From: Chroococcidiopsis sp. CCMEE 29
Lineage (GTDB): Bacteria > Cyanobacteriota > Cyanobacteriia > Cyanobacteriales > Chroococcidiopsidaceae
Reading direction: 5' to 3'
DNA: 64,000 nucleotides
NCBI RefSeq assembly: GCF_023558375.1
Contig: NZ_CP083761.1
Location: forward strand, 2,412,001-2,476,000
The notes beneath the pieces were generated by a model. The model made no database searches. It worked only from the letters and a program-made list of their open reading frames with translations, and was not told where the DNA came from. This document shows positions 2-61,862 of the stretch, piece by piece. Position numbers and translations under genes: made by a program. The stretch's first letter is position 1. Each line of letters starts with the position of its first letter.

Positions 2-1027
2 ACCGATCAGCTCGCACGGTGATTTCACCACCCGTGGGAAAGTAAGCATCCCGATTGGGTAAATCCGCAGTGTTTCAGAGCAGACAGCATTGAGATAGGG
101 TAATCGTAAAATAGCGCTCGCCTCTGGGTGATCTCCCAAGCAATCGAGTTCCTGTAGCAGTTTGTCACGCACCTTTGGCAACTTGTGAATCCAGTACAAT
201 GCCCAAGTGATAGCAGTTGCCGTAGTTTCGTGACCTGCGAGCAAGAGTGTCATCAACTCATCACGTAACTCCACATCCGTCATCAGCTCATCCGCCTGAT
301 CGCGAGCACACATTAGTAAGGCGAGGATGTCTGTGCGAGAGGAGTCGAGTTGGTCTCGGCGTTCCTGAATTTCAGCATAGAGAAGTTGGTCAATTTGCTG
401 CTTTTGACGTATAAAGCGACCCCACGGACTCAATGGGCCTAGATCCTGTCGCAGGATCGGAAAATAAAGCATGCTAACACTCAAGGGAGAACTCGTCACA
501 TTTAGCAGTGAATTGAGGAGTTCCTCCAACTGTTGGTAGCGCGGTCCTTCAGTTAAGCCAAACACAGCACGCAAGATCACCCGCAGGGAAATCGCTTGCA
601 TAGAATCTCGGACTGCAAAGGGTTGACCGATCTTCCATTGACTAATTATTTGCTCGGTGATGTTGCTAATCAACTCTCCATAAGTCCGCATCCGTTCTCC
701 ATGAAATGGGGGCATCAGTAGCTGGCGCTGACGCCGATGGCGATCGCCGCTCAGCGTGATCACAGAATGCTCTCCCAGAAAAGGCTGAAATAGTTGGTTT
801 AAGCTTGTATCACCGGGAGCGTCAAATTCTTTTGAATCTGAACTTAAAATCTGCTGAAGCGCTTGAGGATTGCTAACGAAAACAACAGGGGCAAAATTCT
901 TACTCAGTGGCACTGTGAATATGTCGCCATATTTACGGGCGCAGGCATCCATAAATGAAAATGGACGAGCAATCCAGTGGAGCATTTGCAGCAGTGGTAG
1001 CGTCTGCGGACCATTAGGTAGTGTCAT
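2..1027 (-). CDS. Cytochrome P450, CYP110-like (3' end outside window)
   Basis: Open minus-strand frame from the ATG at 1027 to the window edge, about 342 codons without a stop. The N-terminus has the proline-rich P450 hinge followed by a 'RKYGDIFTV' segment. The I-helix motif GHETTAT lies near 215-240 and the K-helix ExxR reads SETLR near 100. The haem-binding cysteine lies beyond the window. P450s of this type oxidise fatty acids, alkanes or terpenoids; the substrate cannot be read here. The CYP110 assignment rests on overall resemblance to cyanobacterial P450s and is less certain than the P450 call. Confidence 0.9.
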   Translation of the reverse strand, partial: MTLPNGPQTLPLLQMLHWIARPFSFMDACARKYGDIFTVPLSKNFAPVVFVSNPQALQQILSSDSKEFDAPGDTSLNQLFQPFLGEHSVITLSGDRHRRQRQLLMPPFHGERMRTYGELISNITEQIISQWKIGQPFAVRDSMQAISLRVILRAVFGLTEGPRYQQLEELLNSLLNVTSSPLSVSMLYFPILRQDLGPLSPWGRFIRQKQQIDQLLYAEIQERRDQLDSSRTDILALLMCARDQADELMTDVELRDELMTLLLAGHETTATAITWALYWIHKLPKVRDKLLQELDCLGDHPEASAILRLPYLNAVCSETLRIYPIGMLTFPRVVKSPCELIG

Positions 1028-1201
1028 AAAGCCTTTATACAGAAAGTTTTTTATTATTTATCACGAACCTAAGCTAGCAAAGGTACAAGCGGAAGGTGTA
1101 GCGCCTTTAACAAATCTACCCAAAGGGGATTTAGAGCCAGCAGCAATCTCAGTAAACTCTCGAAACAGCCCCTTACTAAACTTCTTAAAAATGCGATCGC
1201 T

Positions 1202-2464
1202 ATGCATGTAGATATTTATATTCTTGACCTGCTGGTTATTGGTCTCCTCTTGCTCCTGGTCACTTTAGGGTCAGGCTGGATTGCGCGATGGCCGCTTTCC
1301 TATGCCCAAATTTACTTACTTGTTGGGATCATTCTGGGTCCTTATGGTTTCCATCTGATTCAATTGCGACCTAACGCAGAGTTTCTGGAGCGGCTAACGG
1401 AATTTGTTGTGATTGTCTCTGTGTTTAGCTGCGGGCTCAAAATGAATCGCCCCCTAACTTTGCGTGCTTGGAATTCAACGGCACGGCTGATTGGTTTCCT
1501 GATGCCGATCTCCATCTTTGCGATTGCGGCAGTAGGTCATTGGCTGTTAGGGCTAGGTTGGGGAGCCGCCATTTTGCTGGGAGCAATTTTAGCACCAACC
1601 GATCCAGTATTAGCCTCAGATGTCCAGCTGACTAATATCAAAGATAGGGATGAGTTGCGATTTGCCTTAACCTCTGAAGGCGGGTTGAACGATGCGCTGG
1701 CCTTTCCGTTTGTCTATTTTGGGCTCCACTTGCTAGAGGATAGCAACTGGCAAAACTGGTTTAAACAATGGGTTGCTGTTGACTTAATCTGGGCGATCGC
1801 TGCTGGAATCGTCATGGGAATTCTAGTACCTAAGGCAATTGTTTGGATTGACCAGTACCTTCAGAAATTCCGTGCTATGGATGAGCTTTTGGAGGATTTC
1901 GTTGCCCTCAGTACTATTTTGCTGACCTATTCTTTAACAGAAGTTGTGAACGGTTATGGATTTATCGCCGTTTTTGTCGCCGGGATTGTGGTACAGCGTA
2001 GTTACCACGACCCAGAGAAGCAACATTCTCAGTTTGAATTCACGGAGCAAGTTGAAAAACTACTGGAGGTAGGAACCATTTTGCTACTAGGGTCTCTACT
2101 GCTAATTGAGCCGATGGTGCGATTTGCTGGTGACGCGCTTCTGGTAGCAGGATTATTGCTCTTTGTGATCCGACCTGTAGGAGCTTGGATCAGTACGATT
2201 GGCAATGGCTTTCCTCTGGAAAAGCGTTGGCTAATTGGCTGGTTTGGGATTCGAGGCGTCGGCTCCCTCTATTACCTTTCCTATGCCCTTGGAGAGCGCT
2301 TACAAGGGGAACAAGGTGAGCGGTTAGCTTGGATTATTTACATCACAGTTGTCATTTCCGTGATTCTGCATGGAATCAGTTCTACACCCTTAATGAACTG
2401 GTATGAAAGCAAATTTAGGAAACGCCGCAAGGCTAATACTGTAACCATGCCTGAGGAATCTTAA
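1202..2464 (+). CDS. CPA1-type sodium/proton antiporter
   Basis: 420-residue inner-membrane protein with about 12 hydrophobic segments. The family signature region reads LLGAILAPTDPVLAS followed by an SEGGLNDALAFPFVY block; the acidic ND pair is the expected ion-binding site of CPA1/NhaP antiporters. It should exchange cytoplasmic Na+ or K+ for H+. The short C-terminal tail (KFRKRRKANT) is basic and cytosolic. The start at 1202 lies just after a HIP1 octamer; another in-frame Met is not evident upstream. Divergent from the P450 gene with about 175 bp between them. A K+/H+ preference cannot be excluded. Confidence 0.88.
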   Translation: MHVDIYILDLLVIGLLLLLVTLGSGWIARWPLSYAQIYLLVGIILGPYGFHLIQLRPNAEFLERLTEFVVIVSVFSCGLKMNRPLTLRAWNSTARLIGFLMPISIFAIAAVGHWLLGLGWGAAILLGAILAPTDPVLASDVQLTNIKDRDELRFALTSEGGLNDALAFPFVYFGLHLLEDSNWQNWFKQWVAVDLIWAIAAGIVMGILVPKAIVWIDQYLQKFRAMDELLEDFVALSTILLTYSLTEVVNGYGFIAVFVAGIVVQRSYHDPEKQHSQFEFTEQVEKLLEVGTILLLGSLLLIEPMVRFAGDALLVAGLLLFVIRPVGAWISTIGNGFPLEKRWLIGWFGIRGVGSLYYLSYALGERLQGEQGERLAWIIYITVVISVILHGISSTPLMNWYESKFRKRRKANTVTMPEES

Positions 2465-2571
2465 TTTTCCAGCGTACATGGCTTGTCGAACAAGTGCCAT
2501 TGTTTTAATTTTGGGCTTAGCAACAGCCGTTGCCCTGCTTGAATCGTTGTATCTTTACACATTAATTCAAT

Positions 2572-2857
2572 TGACACTCCCCACGCATAGAATGTGGGGG
2601 ATTCTTGGTTCACTGAGCCACCTTGTCTAGACCTGTTGCCAAATCTAGATAGCGGGTGTTCTCTCCCCAAGCGTTTTCGTTCCCCAATGGCCTTGGGTAC
2701 GTTCTCAATCCTTTAGCCAAAACGTTTAGTGCCGCGTTTTCGTCGCGACAAAGTTCAGCCCCACAGGAACATTTATGCGTTCTGGTGCTGAGAGTTTTGT
2801 TGACTTGATTACCGCAAGACGAACAATTGACGCTGGTGTATTGGGGAGGTACAGCAA
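2572..2857 (-). pseudogene. TnpB 3' relic with IS605-type right end
   Basis: On the minus strand this encodes only the C-terminal zinc-ribbon and tail of a TnpB protein: CSSCG, then THKCSCGAELCRDENAALN, and a final NENAWGE block, with a stop at 2610-2612. Downstream is a short hairpin (CCCCCACATTCTATGCGTGGGG) and the end sequence GGAGTGTCAAT. The same end sequence occurs after the second TnpB copy near 49957. The catalytic RuvC acids before the zinc ribbon are missing, so it is inactive. It marks a former IS200/IS605 (IS1341-group) insertion. Confidence 0.85.
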
Positions 2858-3447: not shown

Positions 3448-4815
3448 ATGAATAACAATAAAAAGAACTACCGCAAACTAGAACACAGCACGGAGGAAAA
3501 GGCTTGTATTAATAGTGGATATATTAGTAATCACGTTTCATCACCAAGCTTGCACTCTTCTAACACCCGCTTCAAATTTCTTGCAGCCTCTTCAAATCCA
3601 CCAGCTCTAGTCTGCCTGTCTCATTTGCGTTGGGACTTTGTGTACCAAAGACCTCAACATCTTCTCACCCGCTGTGCCAAAGAGCGACCTGTGTTCTTTA
3701 TCGAAGAGCCAATTTTTGGGTCTTATCCAGCTAGCCGAATGGAGATCAGCAGGCGGGAAAGTGGGGTCTGGGTTGTAGTGCCGCACTTACCAGAGGGCTT
3801 GAGTGCAGAGGCTGTTGCAGCCGCTCAACAACTGCTAATAGATGAACTATTTGCAGAGCAAGAGATTTACCAGTACATCCTGTGGTACTACACGCCGATG
3901 GCAATGTCTTTCACCCGCCATCTAAAGCCGATCGCAGTTGTCTACGACTGTATGGATGAGCTGTCGCTGTTCGCCGGAGCACCGCCAGCTTTGAAGAAGT
4001 GTGAAGCTGAACTGTTCAAGTGTGCAGACTTAGTATTTACGGGTGGACAGAGCCTTTACGAGAGCAAGGTAAACCAGCACCCAAACGTCTACGCCTTTCC
4101 CAGTAGCATTGACAGGGCGCACTTCGCACAGGCAAGAAACTTCACAGGAGAGCCAGCGGATCAAGCAGATATTCTCCATCCCCGTCTTGGGTTTTTTGGA
4201 GTGATAGATGAACGGATGGATCTTGACTTGCTCAGTGGCATCGCTCAAGCACGACCCGACTGGCATCTAGTTATTATTGGTCCAGTTGTCAAAATAGATC
4301 CAGCTATCCTGCCACGCCAAGAAAACATTCATTATCTAGGGGGCAAATCCTATCAAGAGCTGCCTACCTATGTTGCAGGCTGGAATGTGGCGTTGTTGCC
4401 GTTCGCGCATAACGAGTCAACGCGCTTCATTAGCCCCACCAAAACCCCAGAGTACCTCGCGGCTGGTAAGCCTGTCGTGTCTACCTCAATCCGTGACGTT
4501 GTTCGTCCCTACGGGCAGTTGGGTTTAGTACGGATTGCAGATACCGTTACCGAGTTTGTAGCAGCAACTGAGGAAGCGATGAATCAAAATCATGCGTCGA
4601 ATTGGCTTGCTCAGGTGGATGCGTTCCTGGCACAGACTTCTTGGGACTCCACTTGGGGGCGGATGATCCAACTGGTGGAATCTGCAATGAGCGATCGCGT
4701 TGGCTTAGCATCTGGGCAGGAGAATGGAATAATTGCCCCAGTTCAAGCTGCCAAACGTTCAGCCGTTAAGCGGTCAACCTCTATAGTTGCCAGCGACTTC
4801 GTTTCTAAAGATTAA
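3448..4815 (+). CDS. Glycosyltransferase (GT-B type), first gene of a sugar operon
   Basis: 455 residues. The first ~45 residues are polar and unlike the family; the conserved part starts at LVCLSHLRWDFVYQRPQHLL, typical of cyanobacterial glycosyltransferases paired with UDP-galactopyranose mutase. Further landmarks are VVYDCMDELS, FTGGQSLYESK, and a C-terminal STKTPEYLAAGKPVVST block that matches the nucleotide-sugar binding part of GT4-like enzymes. The next gene begins 17 bp downstream, so the two are likely co-transcribed. It probably adds a sugar, plausibly galactofuranose, to a surface polysaccharide; donor and acceptor are inferred. A downstream start near residue 45 is possible. Confidence 0.82.
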   Translation: MNNNKKNYRKLEHSTEEKACINSGYISNHVSSPSLHSSNTRFKFLAASSNPPALVCLSHLRWDFVYQRPQHLLTRCAKERPVFFIEEPIFGSYPASRMEISRRESGVWVVVPHLPEGLSAEAVAAAQQLLIDELFAEQEIYQYILWYYTPMAMSFTRHLKPIAVVYDCMDELSLFAGAPPALKKCEAELFKCADLVFTGGQSLYESKVNQHPNVYAFPSSIDRAHFAQARNFTGEPADQADILHPRLGFFGVIDERMDLDLLSGIAQARPDWHLVIIGPVVKIDPAILPRQENIHYLGGKSYQELPTYVAGWNVALLPFAHNESTRFISPTKTPEYLAAGKPVVSTSIRDVVRPYGQLGLVRIADTVTEFVAATEEAMNQNHASNWLAQVDAFLAQTSWDSTWGRMIQLVESAMSDRVGLASGQENGIIAPVQAAKRSAVKRSTSIVASDFVSKD

Positions 4816-4831
4816 AAGGCGGAATCATCAA

Positions 4832-5974
4832 ATGTTCGATTACCTAATAGTGGGAGCAGGGTTTGCTGGAAGTGTCTTAGCAGAGCGACTAGCAACACAA
4901 GCTGGCAAGAAGATCCTGATAGTTGACACGCGATCGCACATCGGCGGCAACGCCTACGATCACTACAACGAGGAAGGCATCCTTGTCCACAGATACGGTC
5001 CACATATCTTTCACACCAACTCCCGCGAAGTCTTCGAGTACCTATCACAATTCACTCAGTGGCGCTCCTACGAACACCGGGTACTTGCCAGTGTAGACGG
5101 ACAACTGGTGCCGATCCCGATTAACCTCGACACCGTTAATCGACTGTACGGATTGAAGCTCACCTCATTTGAGCTAGAAGAATTTTTTGCCTCAGTAGCG
5201 GAGCCCAAAGACTACATCCGCACCTCAGAGGATGTAGTAGTCAGCAAAGTCGGCAGAGAACTGTACGAAAAGTTCTTCCGTGGGTACACCCGCAAGCAAT
5301 GGGACATCGATCCATCAGAATTAGACAAGTCAGTCACAGCTCGGGTGCCAACGCGAACCAACCGGGATGACCGTTATTTCACCGATACCTATCAGGCAAT
5401 GCCACTGTACGGCTATACTCGCATGTTCGAGAAGATGCTGTCGCAGCCGAACATCAAGATCATGCTCAACACCGATTATCGGGAAATCATCGAGGTGATT
5501 CCCTACCGGGAGATGATTTACACCGGTCCAGTCGATCAGTTCTTCGACTACCGCTACGGCAAGCTACCTTACCGTTCGCTGGAGTTTAAGCACGAGACGA
5601 TTAACACACCGGTGCATCAACCAGTGGCAGTAGTCAACTATCCTAACCAGCATCTATACACCCGGGTGACGGAGTTCAAATACCTGACTGGGCAGGAGCA
5701 TCCAAAAACGAGCATTGTCTACGAGTACCCACGGGAGTCAGGAGATCCTTACTACCCGGTACCGCGTCCAGAAAATGCGGAACTCTACAAGAAATATAAG
5801 GAGCTAGCTAATGCAACGACTGGGGTGCATTTTGTCGGGCGGCTGGCAACTTACAAGTATTACAACATGGATCAGGTTGTGGCTCAGGCATTGACGCTAT
5901 ACACTAATCTCGCAGCCCGTAGTAGTTGGAACATAGAGGAGAATGAACATGCTCTCGCAGCCACCGCATCTTGA
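4832..5974 (+). CDS. glf: UDP-galactopyranose mutase
   Basis: Flavoenzyme converting UDP-galactopyranose to UDP-galactofuranose in the cytoplasm. The start at 4832 puts the FAD-binding motif GAGFAGSVLAERLA at residues 8-21 and is preceded by AAGGCGGAAT. Other family landmarks are IGGNAYDH, GPHIFHT, YTRKQWDIDPSEL, and the C-terminal YKYYNMDQVVAQAL block. Length 380 residues is normal. Its 3' end overlaps the next gene by about 30 bp, showing tight coupling. Confidence 0.95.
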   Translation: MFDYLIVGAGFAGSVLAERLATQAGKKILIVDTRSHIGGNAYDHYNEEGILVHRYGPHIFHTNSREVFEYLSQFTQWRSYEHRVLASVDGQLVPIPINLDTVNRLYGLKLTSFELEEFFASVAEPKDYIRTSEDVVVSKVGRELYEKFFRGYTRKQWDIDPSELDKSVTARVPTRTNRDDRYFTDTYQAMPLYGYTRMFEKMLSQPNIKIMLNTDYREIIEVIPYREMIYTGPVDQFFDYRYGKLPYRSLEFKHETINTPVHQPVAVVNYPNQHLYTRVTEFKYLTGQEHPKTSIVYEYPRESGDPYYPVPRPENAELYKKYKELANATTGVHFVGRLATYKYYNMDQVVAQALTLYTNLAARSSWNIEENEHALAATAS

Positions 5975-8147
5975 GCTATGGGCGGGAGTGGAATGCACGG
6001 TTAACCGCGTTGGGGATCAGTATTTTGACCAACTAGAGCGAAATGGTCATGCAACACGCCTGGATGACCTCGATCTATTTGCTCAGTTGGGAGTACGTAC
6101 CATGCGCTACCCTGTGCTGTGGGAACGTACCGCACCGGATGGACTAGAATCGGCTAACTGGTCCTGGACAGATGAGCGACTTGGAAGGATGCGCGAACTT
6201 GGCATCCGCCCAATTATCGGCTTAGTACACCACGGCAGCGGTCCTCGCCATACCAGCCTCATCGATCCGGCTTTCGCTGAAGGACTAGCTAGCTTCGCTC
6301 AGGCGGTTGCCGAGCGCTATCCGTGGGTGGAGAATTATACGCCTGTCAATGAACCATTGACTACCGCACGCTTTAGCGGACTGTATGGTCATTGGTATCC
6401 TCATGGTCGTGACGATTTGACCTTTATGCGGGCGTTGCTAACACAATGCCGTGCTACCGTCCTCTCGATGCAGGCAATCCGTAAAGTAAACCCCACGGCG
6501 CAACTGGTGCAGACTGAGGATTTGGGTAAGACTTTCAGCACGCCGTTACTAGCCTACCAAGCAGAACTTGAGAACCAGCGCCGTTGGCTGAGCTTCGATC
6601 TACTATGCGGTCACGTTAATCGTGACCACCCGCTGTGGGGCTACCTGCTCGCTTCGGGAATCAGTGAGACCGAATTTGAGGTGTTCCTCGATCATCCCTG
6701 CCCACCAGACGTGATGGGGATTAACCACTACGTGACGAGCGATCGCTTCCTGGACGAGCGGCTCGAATACTACCCATCCTGGGCACATGGGGGCAATGGG
6801 AGGCACAAGTATGCAGACGTAGAGGCAGTACGTGCCCGTGCTGAAGGTCTAGCTGAACCACAACTGCTGCTGAAAGAGGCATGGGAACGTTACGGGATAC
6901 CGATAGCTATCACCGAGGCACACCTCGGCTCCACCCGCGAGGAGCAACTGCGCTGGTTAAAGGAGAAGTGGGATGCGGCACAGAATCTGCAACACGAGGG
7001 CGTGGACCTACGTGCCGTCACAGTCTGGTCTCTGCTTGGTGCCTACGACTGGAATACCCTGGTAACTGCACTCCGAGGTCACTACGAGCCGGGTGTGTTC
7101 GACCTGCGATCGCCGCGTCCGCGTCCTACAGCGCTTGCCGGAATGGTACGCGATTTAGCACATGGGAAGATACCCGCTCACCCTGTTCTCGATAGCCCAG
7201 GGTGGTGGCGTCGGCCCGAGCGGCTGACGTATGGACCAGTACCTTGGGCAGGGCAAGCAGGGGGAGCAGGGGAAGAACTTACCCCTCGCCCCTCATTGGT
7301 GCGCCCAATTTTAATTGCGGGAGCGACAGGGACGCTCGGGAGCGCTTTTGCCCGACTGTGCGAATTTCGGGGTATTTCCTATCAGCTTTTGACACGTAAA
7401 GAAATGGACATTGCTAACCCGGCGTCAGTGGATACAGCATTAACCGAGTTACAGCCGTGGGCAGTTATCAATGCCGCTGGGTATGTGCGTGTGGACGATG
7501 CTGAGCGCGAAGTGGATGCGTGCCTTCGTGTGAACGCGGATGGTCCGGCAATTCTAGCCGAGAGCTGTGCTCGGCAGGGAGTGGCGCTGCTCACTTTCTC
7601 ATCGGATCTCGTCTTCGATGGAACTTCACTTTCACCCTATGTAGAGAGCGATACTGTTGCGCCCCTGAATGTGTATGGACGCAGCAAGGCCGAGGCGGAG
7701 GAAAGGGTCTTAAAAGCCTGTCCATCGGCGCTTGTGATCCGCACCAGCGCCTTTTTTGGACCATGGGACAACTACAACTTCCTCACAATTGCATTACGCA
7801 CGCTGGCTGCGGGGCATCCATTCCTTGCTGCTGAAGATGCGACTGTTTCGCCCACCTATGTTCCCGATCTTGTGCATACCAGCCTTGATTTATTAATTGA
7901 CGGGGAATGCGGTGTGTGGCACCTCGCCAATCCTGGTGCGATCGCTTGGGCTGACCTAGCGTGTTTGGTCGCACAGCAAGCTGGTTTGGACGCGACGCGC
8001 GTTTGCCCAGTCCCCACCCATACCCTTGGGCTGGCTGCCCCTCGCCCCTCTTACAGCGTTCTCGGTAGCGAGCGTGGTGTGCTCCTCCCATCCCTGGAAA
8101 ATGCGATCGCCCGCTACTTCCATGAGTGCGAGTTCGTCGACCAGTAA
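5943..8147 (+). CDS. Fusion: GH1-like glycosidase + RmlD-type sugar-nucleotide reductase
   Basis: 734 residues in two domains. Residues ~10-420 resemble a GH1-like (beta/alpha)8 glycosidase, with PVNEPL as the acid/base glutamate and AITEAHLG as the likely nucleophile region. Residues ~450-730 are an SDR-type dTDP-4-dehydrorhamnose reductase (RmlD): GATGTLGSAFA nucleotide site, DIANPASVD, and the catalytic YGRSKAE. The linker (about 435-450) is encoded by a GC-rich repeat of GCAGGGGGAGCAGGGG type. The start may be 5949 rather than 5943, because GAGGA is better spaced from it. Position after the transferase and glf suggests surface-glycan synthesis or remodelling; no substrate can be named. 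Confidence 0.85.
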   Translation: MNMLSQPPHLELWAGVECTVNRVGDQYFDQLERNGHATRLDDLDLFAQLGVRTMRYPVLWERTAPDGLESANWSWTDERLGRMRELGIRPIIGLVHHGSGPRHTSLIDPAFAEGLASFAQAVAERYPWVENYTPVNEPLTTARFSGLYGHWYPHGRDDLTFMRALLTQCRATVLSMQAIRKVNPTAQLVQTEDLGKTFSTPLLAYQAELENQRRWLSFDLLCGHVNRDHPLWGYLLASGISETEFEVFLDHPCPPDVMGINHYVTSDRFLDERLEYYPSWAHGGNGRHKYADVEAVRARAEGLAEPQLLLKEAWERYGIPIAITEAHLGSTREEQLRWLKEKWDAAQNLQHEGVDLRAVTVWSLLGAYDWNTLVTALRGHYEPGVFDLRSPRPRPTALAGMVRDLAHGKIPAHPVLDSPGWWRRPERLTYGPVPWAGQAGGAGEELTPRPSLVRPILIAGATGTLGSAFARLCEFRGISYQLLTRKEMDIANPASVDTALTELQPWAVINAAGYVRVDDAEREVDACLRVNADGPAILAESCARQGVALLTFSSDLVFDGTSLSPYVESDTVAPLNVYGRSKAEAEERVLKACPSALVIRTSAFFGPWDNYNFLTIALRTLAAGHPFLAAEDATVSPTYVPDLVHTSLDLLIDGECGVWHLANPGAIAWADLACLVAQQAGLDATRVCPVPTHTLGLAAPRPSYSVLGSERGVLLPSLENAIARYFHECEFVDQ

Positions 8148-8278
8148 CAGCAATTCTATGGGTGCTTGCACAGAATTTTGGGCGCCGTTGAACCACAGGC
8201 AGATCCGGCTAAACTTAGTCCATGATGATGTCGAAACGATTATAAATTGAAGCGGAGTTTCCGTCAGGTTTTATTCAT

Positions 8279-8932
8279 TCATGAGTTAGTTGATTCGGTA
8301 AAGACTACCTCATGAAGCGACATTTGAAATTCATTATTAGCAAGCGATCGCATCTCCCTAAGAGGTTCAGCCATTGGCGGATTTGCATTCATCTTGGCAT
8401 ATAGCTCTTGAGAGCTCCACAGCCCATAATTAATGGCACGAGCACCATCTAGCGAGCGATGAAAGTGAGTAGTGATTAATCCAGCTTGTCCTGAGATTTG
8501 CCGGATCGCTTCTGCGGTAGCTTCCAAAAAGCGAGATTGATTGGCAGGATTTTTTAGTTTGAAAATACCGAAGTTGATCAGTTCACGCATATTTGCTGCA
8601 ATCTGCATTTCACTATCAGCTGGTTCGCTGATAAAAATCTCGTAGAGATGAGAATCTGGAGTAAAAAAGCCCGTGATTTGAGTGGCTAGGGCAATGTCTC
8701 GATTGCTGATGTATGCTTCGTAATTGGCTTGGCTTTGCCACTGCACATAATTGACAACACGTAACCCATCTAAGCTGCGATGAATTGCGTTAGCAACATA
8801 TCCGGGCTGTTGTTTAAGAATGTTTTGAGTGTACGCTATCAAACTATCTACTAATAACCACTGCTGAGCTGCCTGCGTGACAAAAATATCCAACTCTGCC
8901 AAAACTGGATTGTCCTTAAAAACGTTGAGCAT
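8279..8932 (-). CDS. Tandem ABM-domain (antibiotic biosynthesis monooxygenase-like) protein
   Basis: 217 residues made of two ferredoxin-like ABM repeats. Each carries the pattern Q-PGY/AGL ... IHRSLDG or FHRSLDG ... V/INYxxW, at about residues 40-65 and 145-170. ABM proteins are small cofactor-free oxygenases or haem/quinone-handling proteins in the cytoplasm. The gene lies 124 bp downstream of an AraC regulator on the same strand, which may control it. Function within the family is not predictable. Confidence 0.8.
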   Translation of the reverse strand: MLNVFKDNPVLAELDIFVTQAAQQWLLVDSLIAYTQNILKQQPGYVANAIHRSLDGLRVVNYVQWQSQANYEAYISNRDIALATQITGFFTPDSHLYEIFISEPADSEMQIAANMRELINFGIFKLKNPANQSRFLEATAEAIRQISGQAGLITTHFHRSLDGARAINYGLWSSQELYAKMNANPPMAEPLREMRSLANNEFQMSLHEVVFTESTNS

Positions 8933-9056
8933 TAGAGAATTCCCTGCCGTTAACTCTGCGTTGGTTAGTTCAGAATCAAAGTAAACTATTCAACTAACGA
9001 TATAAAGTCCTTCTGCTAGGGTATATCCGGTTTTTGCAGATTTTAGTAGATTCTTG

Positions 9057-9932
9057 CTACTGATTGCAGAATTGCTTTGGCGTGACTCCTGTGAGGCGCT
9101 TGAAGTGTCTGCCAAATTGACTTTGGCTAGCAAACCCAACTTGCAGGGCAATATTCGCAATACTCAGCTGACCCTGTAATAGTAATTCCTGAGCACGTTC
9201 AATCCGGCATTTAATCAGGTACTGATAGGGAGAATAGCCTGTAGACTGTTTGAACAGTCGAGCAAAGTAATATTGACTCATACCGAGTTCTGCGGCGATC
9301 GCTGCCAATGACACATCTACTGCTAAATGGGCTTGGATGTAATCAATCGCTTGTTGTAGTTTATGTTTGGGCAAACCACCTACATAATCTTGAATGTTCT
9401 GCTTGCGTGTTGGGTAACGTCGCAATAGATGAACGGCTAACGCGTTTGCCATTGATTCAGCGTAGAGGCGATCGCTCAATCCATTCACTTCAAGTTCTGA
9501 TTTGAGTGTTAAACCAATTTGTTGGATTAGGGGATCGCGGATCTTAAGCTGGGGTACAATTTCGACTTGCTTGGCATCAACGGCTTCGTATACAGCAGAG
9601 GCAAACAGTTTGGGTTCAAGGCGAAGTAACAGAAACTCCGCCTCGTTGTCCCAAGCTAATTTACGATGGAGATAGGGTGGCGAAATCATAATATCGCCTT
9701 CAGTCAGAAATTGGTTGATACGTTGCCCGTCTGCCGTCCGTTCTAATTGAATCGGCTGTCCCAGATGAATACTGAGTAGGTAATTAGGAAGACAACACTC
9801 AGATGACTCATTCGCAGGCTGAAGATGCCGTTCAACGCGAACAATATCCGCAACGACTGCTTGACTCCATAAGATAGGTGATCGCGGCACAACCTGCTTG
9901 AAAACATTTCTCAGGGTGAAGTCCTGGCTCAT
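9057..9932 (-). CDS. AraC-family transcriptional regulator
   Basis: 291 residues. The N-terminal ~170 residues form an effector-binding half with no specific match. The C-terminal ~100 residues are the two-HTH AraC domain: DVSLAAIAAELGMSQYYFARLFKQSTGYSP and IANIALQVGFASQSQFGRHFKRLTGVTP. It likely regulates the ABM-domain gene downstream on the same strand. A decayed relative lies at 41220-41766. Confidence 0.92.
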   Translation of the reverse strand: MSQDFTLRNVFKQVVPRSPILWSQAVVADIVRVERHLQPANESSECCLPNYLLSIHLGQPIQLERTADGQRINQFLTEGDIMISPPYLHRKLAWDNEAEFLLLRLEPKLFASAVYEAVDAKQVEIVPQLKIRDPLIQQIGLTLKSELEVNGLSDRLYAESMANALAVHLLRRYPTRKQNIQDYVGGLPKHKLQQAIDYIQAHLAVDVSLAAIAAELGMSQYYFARLFKQSTGYSPYQYLIKCRIERAQELLLQGQLSIANIALQVGFASQSQFGRHFKRLTGVTPKQFCNQ

Positions 9933-59382: not shown

Positions 59383-60783
59383 CTACAAGGATAGGGGCAG
59401 CAATTCTGTGGCTATCTGATATAAATGTTCGTGGTTAATTTTCCCCTGGGTGTTTCGGGGTAACTTTTGCAGAGAAATCCAATATTTAGGTTGTTTGAAT
59501 TTACTCAATTTATCTGTAATTGCAGCTTGCAATGTAGCAGGAGTAACAAATGAATTGTTAGGAACATAAATAGCTGTTACCACTTGCCCCCATTGGTGGT
59601 TAGGTAAGCCTATTACACAGACATCATCAACTAGATGCGTTGCTCTAATAGCTGCTTCTACTTCATTTGGATAGACGTTTTCACCGCCAGTAATAATTTT
59701 GTTACTGCTACGACCAACAACGTTTAAGTAACCTTGATTATTTAAGAAACCTATATCATCCAATTGAAAATGTTGGTTATTAGCAAATAATTCTGGGTAA
59801 TAACCTAGTGCTAAAGATTTAGCCTGAATAGTAATAATTCCTGTTTGATTTACCCCCAACACTTGATTTGTGGGGCTGTGAATAGTCACTTTGGCATGGG
59901 GTAAAACTTGACCACAGTGGTTGTAACCGTTGAGAAAATCTTTTGGTTTGAGGGTGGCAATCTGGGAGGCAGTTTCTGTCATGCCGTAGGTGGGTGCTAA
60001 ATGAATACCGTAGTGTCTTGCTTGTTCCAGTAGTTCCTGCCAAGCTGGCGCCCCCCCCAATAATACGGTTTGAAATTCGGATAGCCAGCTAGCTAGTGGT
60101 GGTTGCTGTAGCAGACGCTGCAACTGAGTTGGCACTAAGGATATGAAAAATTCAGATGGATTTATATCAGTTTTTTCACCAGCTTCCAGTGCTTTAAATG
60201 GCAGCACAACCAGTTGACCACCCGTTGTAAGCGATCGCAGAAATTGCATCAGACCGCTAACATGATAGAGCGGCAATACACAGAATGAATTGACTTGATT
60301 CAGTTGAAAATATTGCTGAAAACCTTGCACAGATGCCATTAAGGTTTCCCAGGTGTGGATGGCAAACCGAATCTTACCTGATGAACCACCCGTGGGAATC
60401 ATAATCCATTGGGGGTTGGCGATCGCAGGTTGAGGGCTAGGATAGTAATCTTTAATTGCCAATCCCCAATCTCCGTAGCCTAAAACTAAGTCTGGTTGCA
60501 CTAACTCAAAAACTTGTTGCCATTCCTGCTTTACCCAGTTGGGGTTACAAAGGAAAACAGGACAACCCGCTGCACAAGCGGCGATGAAACCGGCTAGAAA
60601 TTTCACTGGTTCGCGCTCAGCGAGGAGAATTTTTGGTACTGTTCCCTGCTGTAGCAGCTGCGTTAATTCTAAATACAATTGTTCAGCTAACTGAGTAAAT
60701 TGCTGGCTGCGATCGCAAATAAGCCAATTCTCAGCAGGGTTTTTGAGATACGCTATTGGTCTTTCCATAACTGCTCCAGCCAA
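59383..60783 (-). CDS. menE: o-Succinylbenzoate-CoA ligase
   Basis: 466 residues. Acyl-adenylate enzyme: IPTGGSSGKIRFA (P-loop-like), PTYGMTETASQIATL, and NVVGRSSNKIITGGENVYPNEVE with the C-terminal QGKINHEHLY. It activates OSB with CoA for phylloquinone synthesis. The start is at 60783 or M6 (60768). It overlaps menC by 31 bp, showing one operon. Confidence 0.95.
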   Translation of the reverse strand: MAGAVMERPIAYLKNPAENWLICDRSQQFTQLAEQLYLELTQLLQQGTVPKILLAEREPVKFLAGFIAACAAGCPVFLCNPNWVKQEWQQVFELVQPDLVLGYGDWGLAIKDYYPSPQPAIANPQWIMIPTGGSSGKIRFAIHTWETLMASVQGFQQYFQLNQVNSFCVLPLYHVSGLMQFLRSLTTGGQLVVLPFKALEAGEKTDINPSEFFISLVPTQLQRLLQQPPLASWLSEFQTVLLGGAPAWQELLEQARHYGIHLAPTYGMTETASQIATLKPKDFLNGYNHCGQVLPHAKVTIHSPTNQVLGVNQTGIITIQAKSLALGYYPELFANNQHFQLDDIGFLNNQGYLNVVGRSSNKIITGGENVYPNEVEAAIRATHLVDDVCVIGLPNHQWGQVVTAIYVPNNSFVTPATLQAAITDKLSKFKQPKYWISLQKLPRNTQGKINHEHLYQIATELLPLSL

Positions 60784-61862
60784 GTTTGAGCGTCATCGTC
60801 GAACCAGTGGTTAACCCCAAAACCAACAGCGCGATGATTTTGAGATAATTCAGCTGCTAAATTCAAGGCGGCAAGTCTGCCAACAGCCGTTTCAAATACA
60901 GATGAAAACACGGCATCAATTTTGTGTGCTTGGCAAAACTGCCGTAAACGGCGTGGGGAACCCGCGATCGCTGCCTTAATTACAAAAATCTCCCGCCAAC
61001 CCTGCTGATAACAAGTTTCCAGTTGAGCAAGTGTAGCAACAGATTCATCCAAGGCGATCAGGGTGGCATAGCAGCTACTTAATTCCAGCATTTGGGTAAA
61101 TTTCTCTACAGGCAGCGGTTGTTCGATGAATTCGATTTTGCTGGATAACTCCTTGTCACAACTCCAAAGCCATAAATTTGCTGCCTCATCAGTCAGTCCT
61201 CCATTAGCATCTAATCGCAGTTTTGCTGACACTGGTAGTGCTTGAGTGAGTAACTTAAAAATTTCCAGCTCATCTGCAATCGGATAAACCCCAATCTTCC
61301 ACTTAAAAGTGCGATATCCCCGATCCCACAAACTTTGCCAAGCCTGTAAAGCTGCCTCCCCAGCTGGCAATAATACACTGTAGGTGAGGGGCGAGGGGCG
61401 TAGACGCGCAAGCGGCTTCTCGAAGAGTGGGGCGAGGTGTGAGGAAGAGGATACGGAGACGCGGTGACGCGGTGACGCAGGGAATTTCTCCCCCTGCTTC
61501 CCCTGCTCTTCTAATCCCTGACCCCTGATCCCTGACCCCTGACCCCTTAATATTGCTTCAAGTGCTGATTCAAAGCCAAACTGACAGGCGGGTAAGTCAC
61601 TCGGAATTGAGAAAATCATCTCATTTGTGATTTTAGTTGGCAGCTGGCGGCAAAAATCTAGGGCTTGCTCTAAGCTTTCAGAACCAAACCAACTGATAGG
61701 CGCAATCTCACCGTAGCTGGCTAACCCCGTTTCATCACTGAGGCGGAGAATGATACCATCCCGAACATCCCAGATCCCGTGACTGGTTTGCAACGGAGAC
61801 TTAAATCTCCGCTGATAAGGATGAAACTCAAATCGGTAAGCTATTGCACATTTAACTTGCAT
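60753..61862 (-). CDS. menC: o-Succinylbenzoate synthase with a repeat-encoded insert
   Basis: 369 residues. Enolase superfamily: TFKWKIGVY (Lys), RLDANGGL, FIEQPLP, IALDESVA, VIKAAIAGSP. It dehydrates SHCHC to OSB. Residues ~105-160 are a low-complexity insert (RGQGSGIRGQG...ASPRHRVSVSSSS) encoded by GGGGTCA and GACGCGGT repeats; most MenC proteins lack it. The frame is intact and the catalytic residues lie after the insert. Confidence 0.94.
   Translation of the reverse strand: MQVKCAIAYRFEFHPYQRRFKSPLQTSHGIWDVRDGIILRLSDETGLASYGEIAPISWFGSESLEQALDFCRQLPTKITNEMIFSIPSDLPACQFGFESALEAILRGQGSGIRGQGLEEQGKQGEKFPASPRHRVSVSSSSHLAPLFEKPLARLRPSPLTYSVLLPAGEAALQAWQSLWDRGYRTFKWKIGVYPIADELEIFKLLTQALPVSAKLRLDANGGLTDEAANLWLWSCDKELSSKIEFIEQPLPVEKFTQMLELSSCYATLIALDESVATLAQLETCYQQGWREIFVIKAAIAGSPRRLRQFCQAHKIDAVFSSVFETAVGRLAALNLAAELSQNHRAVGFGVNHWFDDDAQTWLEQLWKDQ
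61383..61556. repeat. Short tandem repeats inside menC
   Basis: TGACGCGGTGACGCGG units near 61460 and CCCTGACCCC units near 61520-61550. Both repeat types are found elsewhere in the window (38884, 58014, 29455). They lie wholly within the menC reading frame and keep it open. Confidence 0.82.

Follow-up and report, generated by a model that had tools for sequence, protein, structure and literature searches.

Can a glycoside hydrolase and a sugar-nucleotide reductase share one polypeptide chain and, if they do, what might such a protein act upon? This question is raised by a 64,000-nucleotide stretch of the genome of the cyanobacterium Chroococcidiopsis sp. CCMEE 29 (contig NZ_CP083761.1, positions 2,412,001 to 2,476,000, forward strand; hereafter the window, to whose numbering feature coordinates refer). 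One of its genes joins a half resembling glycoside hydrolase family 1 (GH1) to a half resembling RmlD, of the short-chain dehydrogenase/reductase (SDR) type. A sequence-only reading of the window had proposed this fusion, placed its joint on a short repeat and suggested a role in a glycan pathway. The analyses presented here confirm that the GH1-like/RmlD-like fusion is real, being neither an artefact nor a local oddity.

The fused gene and its domains

The gene and its parts are delimited as follows.

5943..8147, plus strand: fusion gene, GH1-like plus RmlD-like SDR; 734 residues in a single open reading frame (ORF) without interruption
5943..7244, plus strand: GH1-like half, residues 1-434; border approximate, with a conserved GWW (420-422) near the end
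7245..7295, plus strand: inter-domain linker, residues 435-451; borders approximate, drawn from predicted local distance difference test (pLDDT) values and variability among relatives
7296..8144, plus strand: RmlD-like SDR half, residues 452-734

Both halves match Pfam models above the cut-offs: Glyco_hydro_1 (PF00232) at residues 41-372 (41.6 bits, cut-off 22.6) and RmlD_sub_bind (PF04321) at residues 456-710 (221 bits, cut-off 27). An AlphaFold2 (AF2) model of the 734-residue protein, built from a 60-row alignment, has a mean pLDDT of 92 and a predicted template modelling score (pTM) of 0.91, and pLDDT values below 50 are confined to residues 1-4 and to residues 437-450, which form the joint. 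In structure comparisons of this model, GH1 beta-glucosidases are the best matches of residues 7-412 (Z 34.6, root mean square deviation 2.9, 379 residues aligned), and RmlD (1vl0) is the best match of residues 453-731 (Z 38.4, root mean square deviation 1.5, 276 residues aligned). Judged from the model, each half has the appearance of a complete domain. The single ORF, the Pfam matches and the two folds thus bear out the proposed joining of a GH1-like glycosidase to an RmlD-type protein.

Occurrence and history of the fusion

A single scan of genome contigs with six peptide patterns recovered 62 loci, of 43-75% identity, in 11 phyla: Cyanobacteriota (17), Pseudomonadota (16), Bacteroidota (9), Acidobacteriota (7), Myxococcota (4), Thermomicrobiota (3), Chloroflexota (2), and Bdellovibrionota, Armatimonadota, Gemmatimonadota and Verrucomicrobiota (1 each). 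At 52 of the 62, the ORF extends for at least 690 residues from the start of the match, long enough for both halves, so that the fusion, whose frequency the sequence-only reading had proposed to check, is widespread. Among 40 related genomes, the window's own included, 15 carry the full fusion (14 as a single match and G029 as two pieces in one open frame), which leaves 14 of the 39 others; G009 retains only short remnants. The matches listed for 386 sampled cyanobacteria, again including the window's own genome, comprise at least 10 full-length copies, together with a broken copy in G404 (9 stops; contig 1, 1197722-1199362) and a fragment in G070. With 15 of 40 related genomes and at least 10 of 386 cyanobacteria carrying it, the fusion gene is thus patchily distributed.

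Repeats are well known as sites of assembly error, and separate genes in all relatives, combined with a sequencing or assembly artefact at 7240-7300, had been named beforehand as the outcome that would undo the fusion. There is practically no chance that this is the explanation, and we reject it, since the same architecture recurs in the 14 related genomes and the 52 loci counted above, several of them without a visible repeat at the joint.

In a tree made, like the others here, by a quick method, and with a standalone RmlD set drawn only from cyanobacteria and fusion-bearing genomes, 48 fused SDR halves and 38 standalone RmlD-like proteins fall on opposite sides of a branch with a support of 100. 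The 48 are those left of 63 aligned rows after omission of six without an SDR half, six with a heavily eroded one, and three from contigs that are cut or filled with N (L040, L046 and L051). As the fused SDRs share this single branch, one old fusion event appears to be the simplest history. An eroded or absent SDR half marks 15 rows of the GH tree, which are dispersed through it and require 6 changes; L051, with its N run, and L046, at a contig end, are unclassed here, and L038 and L045 count as intact despite a changed catalytic Tyr. In the standalone GH1 set, row L053_b, with its branch length of 10, is probably in a wrong frame and was disregarded. The SDR half therefore seems to have been eroded or lost several times after the fusion. 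The Sorangium series spans these states: L055 is intact, L034 and L036 lack the catalytic Lys, and L049 is GH-only. No SDR remnants were found by tblastn downstream of the six GH-only ORFs, the only matches being weak ones in L050 (E 0.16 and 0.23). Also, locus L012 carries two fusion copies on opposite strands within 8 kb, at 258-2585 (minus) and 6001-8250 (plus) of that locus, one of them beside an ORF that joins a glycosyltransferase (GT) to glf.

The GH1-like half

Two glutamates occupy the catalytic positions of GH1 enzymes.

6351..6353, plus strand: Glu137, predicted acid/base, in a TPxNEP motif; Glu in 63 of 63 rows, aligned to the GH1 NEP in four alignments, codon checked
6915..6917, plus strand: Glu325, predicted nucleophile, in an xTE motif; Glu in 63 of 63 rows, aligned to the GH1 ITE, codon checked

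His96, His97, Asn136, Tyr263, Trp362 and Trp370 are likewise invariant in the 63 rows, as are G420, W421 and W422 across the 60 rows of alignment A1. All 54 invariant columns of A1 lie within the GH half, although its six rows without an SDR half, together with the eroded rows, lower SDR conservation by themselves. By profile, fold and the two glutamates the half can be placed in GH1, and a retaining activity is predicted. An ordinary beta-glucosidase was rejected on the score with the GH1 beta-glucosidase model TIGR03356 (59.7 bits against a cut-off of 478.5). The residue before Trp370 is Asp in 53 rows, Gly in 8 and Asn in 2, whereas four GH1 structures have Glu there. In Thermotoga BglA this position, before the last conserved Trp, is held by Glu405, which we take to contact the sugar at O4 and O6; in that case, the mode of glycon binding in the GH1-like half would not be that of glucose or galactose.

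The SDR half

The features of the second domain are the following.

7320..7340, plus strand: NAD(P)-binding GATGTLG, residues 460-466, from alignment
7602..7688, plus strand: SDR catalytic Ser554, Tyr578 and Lys582, from alignment to 1kbz, codons checked
7749..7751, plus strand: Ala603, at the sugar-contacting Trp position of standalone RmlD, aligned to Salmonella Trp153

In the alignment with 1kbz, Ser554, Tyr578 and Lys582 correspond to Thr104, Tyr128 and Lys132 of Salmonella RmlD, which excerpts of PMC4832382 name as the catalytic triad. The Ser/Thr-Tyr-Lys triad is complete in 44 of the 63 rows. The substrate pocket presents a different picture. According to excerpts of the review PMC9415975, the pocket of RmlD for deoxythymidine diphosphate (dTDP)-rhamnose is formed by Thr65, Tyr106, Tyr128 and Val67, Trp153 contacts the rhamnose, and Thr65, together with Gln11, also contacts the diphosphate of the cofactor. 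In the window protein, Thr65, Tyr106, Trp153 and Gln11 align with Val515, Leu556, Ala603 and Thr464. Across the 48 fused SDRs these four positions hold Val (40), Leu (43), Ala (42) and Thr (41), as against Thr (38), Tyr (33), Trp (37) and Gln (31) in the 38 standalone RmlD proteins. The label of RmlD-type reductase given by the sequence-only reading consequently holds for the fold and the profile but probably not for an identity as dTDP-4-dehydrorhamnose reductase, the pocket being replaced and the score of the RmlD model (see below) falling under its cut-off.

Neighbouring genes

Two genes precede the fusion on the same strand.

3448..4815, plus strand: GT upstream of glf (PF13692, 36.3 bits, cut-off 27)
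4829..5974, plus strand: glf, uridine diphosphate (UDP)-galactopyranose mutase (TIGR00031, 398.5 bits, cut-off 303.75)

The GT is TuaH-like by weak similarity only, its 84.7 bits lying far under the TuaH model cut-off of 550. The glf gene lies directly upstream of the fusion ORF and overlaps it by 32 bp, and this overlap, together with an AGAGGAG before the fusion ATG, suggests coupled translation. Beyond the fusion, on the other strand, an ORF for an ABM-type monooxygenase and an AraC-type regulator occupy positions 8279-9932 (minus).

The 62 loci were searched by tblastn with six query proteins, over flanks of up to 6-7 kb and less on short contigs. GT was found at 43 loci, GLF at 39, GH2 at 14, GalE at 11, GalK at 6 and a second GH1 at 7; these last seven matches include L012, where the match is its second fusion copy, whereas the gene of L041 was removed from the tblastn set by an overlap filter and was seen only in a separate inspection of ORFs. 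A second GH1-like gene occurs in seven loci (L018, L031, L035, L039, L040, L041 and L060). Standalone GH1-like genes of about 400-445 residues lie near the fusion at L035:8102-9340, L041:8087-9334, L040:2100-3308 and L039:4311-5648, these being three Bacteroidota loci and one Roseomonas locus. ORF clusters 3-8, largely made up of opposite-strand or overlapping ORFs together with a second GH set (6), were not treated as gene families. At 27 of the 62 loci, from 7 phyla, glf stands on the same strand at most 600 bp upstream of the fusion, and in 26 of these 27 a GT is also upstream. In 13 loci (L002, L003, L007-L010, L012, L018, L020, L029, L043, L045 and L047) GT and glf form a single ORF of about 770-870 residues beside the fusion. 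The one GalE tested (L003) scores above the TIGR01179 cut-off, and both galactokinases tested (L034 and L054) score above that of TIGR00131. The setting agrees with the glycan pathway that had been suggested for this gene from its position after glf, with GT and glf upstream here and galE or galK in some relatives.

Proposed function and alternatives

On balance, we are slightly inclined to place the fusion at the end of a GT–glf–GH1::SDR cassette by which a galactofuranose-related glycoconjugate would be made or remodelled in the cytosol. UDP-galactofuranose is the likely shared precursor, given glf, the GT and the Leloir enzymes of some loci: it would be produced by glf and used by the GT, and the glycoside so formed might then be the target of the GH1-like half, which would trim or transfer a sugar by a retaining two-step mechanism with Glu325 as nucleophile and Glu137 as acid/base. 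The SDR half, with NAD(P)H and its Ser/Thr-Tyr-Lys triad, would serve to reduce some keto-sugar different from dTDP-4-keto-rhamnose, and may be dispensable in some lineages; a cytosolic location and a galactofuranose-containing product would be common to all these steps. As to the protein itself, our best guess is that it works in the cytosol as a glycosidase or transglycosidase and that its partner domain acts on a keto-sugar other than dTDP-4-keto-rhamnose, as a reductase. A narrower version, which we hold to be unlikely as it stands, is a transglycosidase–ketoreductase in one chain, whose GH1 half would transfer a keto- or 6-deoxy-type sugar to a galactofuranosylated acceptor. Its SDR half would then act on the product of this transfer, whose keto group it would reduce, rather than on the nucleotide sugar. 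This version would account both for the altered sugar pocket of the RmlD-like half and for the altered GH1 glycon site, where the Glu preceding the last Trp is missing, and related chemistries do occur within one pathway in soapwort (see below).

That the SDR half is an ordinary RmlD, producing dTDP-rhamnose while the glycosidase serves a polymer of rhamnose and galactofuranose, would agree with RmlD being the best fold match. The window protein also reaches 214.8 bits with the RmlD model TIGR01214, some 9 bits short of its cut-off (224.05), which two fusions in the genome of L013 just exceed (224.5 and 224.6). Moreover, rmlC occurs above its cut-off in 25 of the 34 fusion-bearing genomes searched (L036 and L055 share one genome and L002 is outside the set). 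The window genome encodes, elsewhere, rmlA, rmlC and a standalone RmlD-like gene adjoining an rmlC, so that rhamnose precursors may exist there. Yet the presence of that standalone gene speaks against this role for the fusion, as do the pocket residues, replaced as a class, and the 9 of 34 genomes in which rmlC was not found above its cut-off (rmlB was not searched for). In five of these nine (G417, G426, G432, G434 and G440) a standalone RmlD above the cut-off was likewise not found; G434 (So ce26) and G440 are Sorangium chromosomes titled complete, and G434 carries the intact fusion copy L055. The clade-wide replacement of the pocket, together with an intact copy in a complete Sorangium genome without an rmlC match, argues that the SDR half is probably not a dTDP-rhamnose reductase, and an ordinary RmlD is judged decidedly unlikely.

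Two further explanations concern the division of labour between the halves and the direction of the pathway. MAT2B is an RmlD relative with a regulatory role for its partner, and the SDR half could similarly have ceased to be an enzyme and support the GH half structurally or by sensing the cofactor. MAT2B is in fact among the matches, and the SDR half has repeatedly been lost or eroded beside an intact GH half, but the triad is complete in the window protein as well as in the 44 rows, where a purely structural role would need none, which makes this explanation rather improbable. Alternatively, the cassette might degrade glycans that contain galactose or galactofuranose, GH1 and GH2 being the cutting enzymes and galK serving to recycle the galactose, a picture into which GH2 (14 of 62 loci), galK (6 of 62) and the second GH1-like gene of seven loci would fit. 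We consider breakdown quite unlikely, since glf and GT, the commonest of the six neighbour types sought, point to synthesis and the fold appears to start at residue 11 of the model, which would leave no room for the usual leader.

Several observations nevertheless weigh against the cassette proposal and its synthetic direction. GT was not found by tblastn at 19 of the 62 loci, nor GLF at 23 (some contigs being short), from which it follows that the cassette is not obligatory, and the GH2 and second GH1 neighbours equally fit breakdown. The GH1 match is remote, with 15-21% identity to the structure matches, and no members with known activity were found. The near miss of the RmlD model, the two fusions that pass it, the frequent rmlC and the rml genes of the window genome count on the same side, as do the quick trees with their restricted standalone set and the effect of the rows lacking an SDR half on alignment A1.

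The linker and its repeats

The joint between the domains contains a repeat that recurs throughout the genome.

7248..7275, plus strand: dispersed repeat of 9-nt units, GCAGGGG(G/A)A, within the linker, from pattern searches in window and genome

GCAGGGGGAGCAGGGGAAG is found in the joint at 7257-7275, overlapped by a degenerate copy (3 mismatches) at 7248-7266, and a further copy with 2 mismatches lies at 61488-61506; these three matches in the window compare with a mean of 0.01 in shuffled sequence. With at most one mismatch, GCAGGGGGAGCAGGGGA has 291 matches in the whole 6.39-Mb genome (166 forward and 125 reverse, adjacent units of one array each being counted), against 0 for a reversed control. 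The linker thus does hold a repeat, as the sequence-only reading had stated, and since the 9-nt unit equals three codons, added units preserve the frame. That reading had assigned the repeat to a type found between genes; the second window copy (61488-61506) lies within an ORF, which is menC-like. This ORF (60753-61862, minus) has repeat-coded in-frame sequence, including that copy, between MenC_N and MR_MLE_C. In Nostoc, excerpts of PMC4692102 describe G-rich heptamer repeats, with a different unit, as over-represented outside genes.

The notion that the repeat made the fusion does not survive comparison. The nearest relatives, L080 (77% identical) and L081 (75% identical), have linkers without the 9-nt repeat, which suggests that the repeat arrived after the fusion and leads us to reject it as the cause; the fusion, moreover, is old and widespread, and other relatives have other repeats at the joint. 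Nor is the linker repeat conserved, as the check proposed with the earlier reading revealed, the linker differing in length and sequence among relatives. Among other cyanobacteria, that of L115 has CTCCCCTGCT-type units of 8 nt in opposite orientation (311 matches in its genome, control 0). CCAAAAT heptamers occur in the linkers of L003, L008 and L113, with 448, 59 and 77 genome matches (controls 7, 0 and 0). CCCCTTGATAAGGGGGG occurs in those of L009, L010 and L020, with 41, 23 and 19 genome matches (control 0), and a variant of it in that of L029, whose genome has 12 exact CCCCTTGATAAGGGGGG matches. Runs of ACTCCCT are present in the L116 linker. In L010 and L020, two close Calothrix-type relatives, the linker of the latter is longer by about 51 nt, which lie in frame within the palindrome CCCCTTGATAAGGGGGG; as a dispersed repeat, this extra sequence gave 1 and 2 matches in two genomes and 0 in two others, so that dispersal is not shown. 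The linker is best read as a site tolerant of insertions, and we propose that repeats persist there because a disordered linker tolerates in-frame additions.

Implications and comparison with known systems

As a fusion that spans 11 phyla, keeps its GH active site invariant and often has glf beside it, the gene offers a way into a presumed galactofuranose-related product, and it may be a bacterial case of GH1 serving synthesis. Its joint is a natural record of several dispersed repeat families within coding sequence, at one tolerant spot. A link with drought tolerance is an impression from record titles, which were not counted, and PMC6513891, on a desiccation-tolerant relative, lacked the four sugar terms sought in it. 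Among the open-licence papers listed, at the level of titles and abstract openings, no description of a GH1–SDR fusion was found. Each fold is well known by itself, and the novelty would lie in their combination, in the altered pockets and in the cassette.

The GH1-like half has the same barrel fold as the GH1 beta-glucosidases of known structure (for instance Thermotoga maritima BglA, 1od0 and 2j7h, with Z 34.4 and 34.6) and likewise carries the two catalytic glutamates. It differs from them in an identity of only 18%, in never having Glu before the last conserved Trp (0 of 63 rows) and in having His-His where three of four compared GH1 alignments show His-Trp. The SDR half likewise resembles RmlD (Salmonella 1kbz and Clostridium 1vl0) in fold (Z 34.5 and 38.4), Ser/Thr-Tyr-Lys triad and cofactor loop, but Thr65, Tyr106 and Trp153 are replaced, the fused proteins have their own tree branch and rmlC was not always found beside them in the genome. 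An RmlD-type domain joined to another sugar enzyme is also reported for the RmlC/D fusion of Prymnesium parvum (PMC6556577), where the partner is instead an epimerase and the pathway is rhamnose synthesis.

A functional likeness comes from soapwort. As described in excerpts of PMC11782082, SoGH1 is a cytosolic GH1 transglycosidase by which D-quinovose is attached, and D-fucose arises from 4-keto-6-deoxyglucose through an SDR that acts once the sugar is on the scaffold; that D-quinovose is formed likewise is a hypothesis of its authors. Both systems would thus place a cytosolic GH1 used for synthesis in the same pathway as an SDR ketoreductase. They differ in that the soapwort system is from a plant, with separate proteins and a triterpene acceptor, and the two are likened here by description, with no sequence link claimed.

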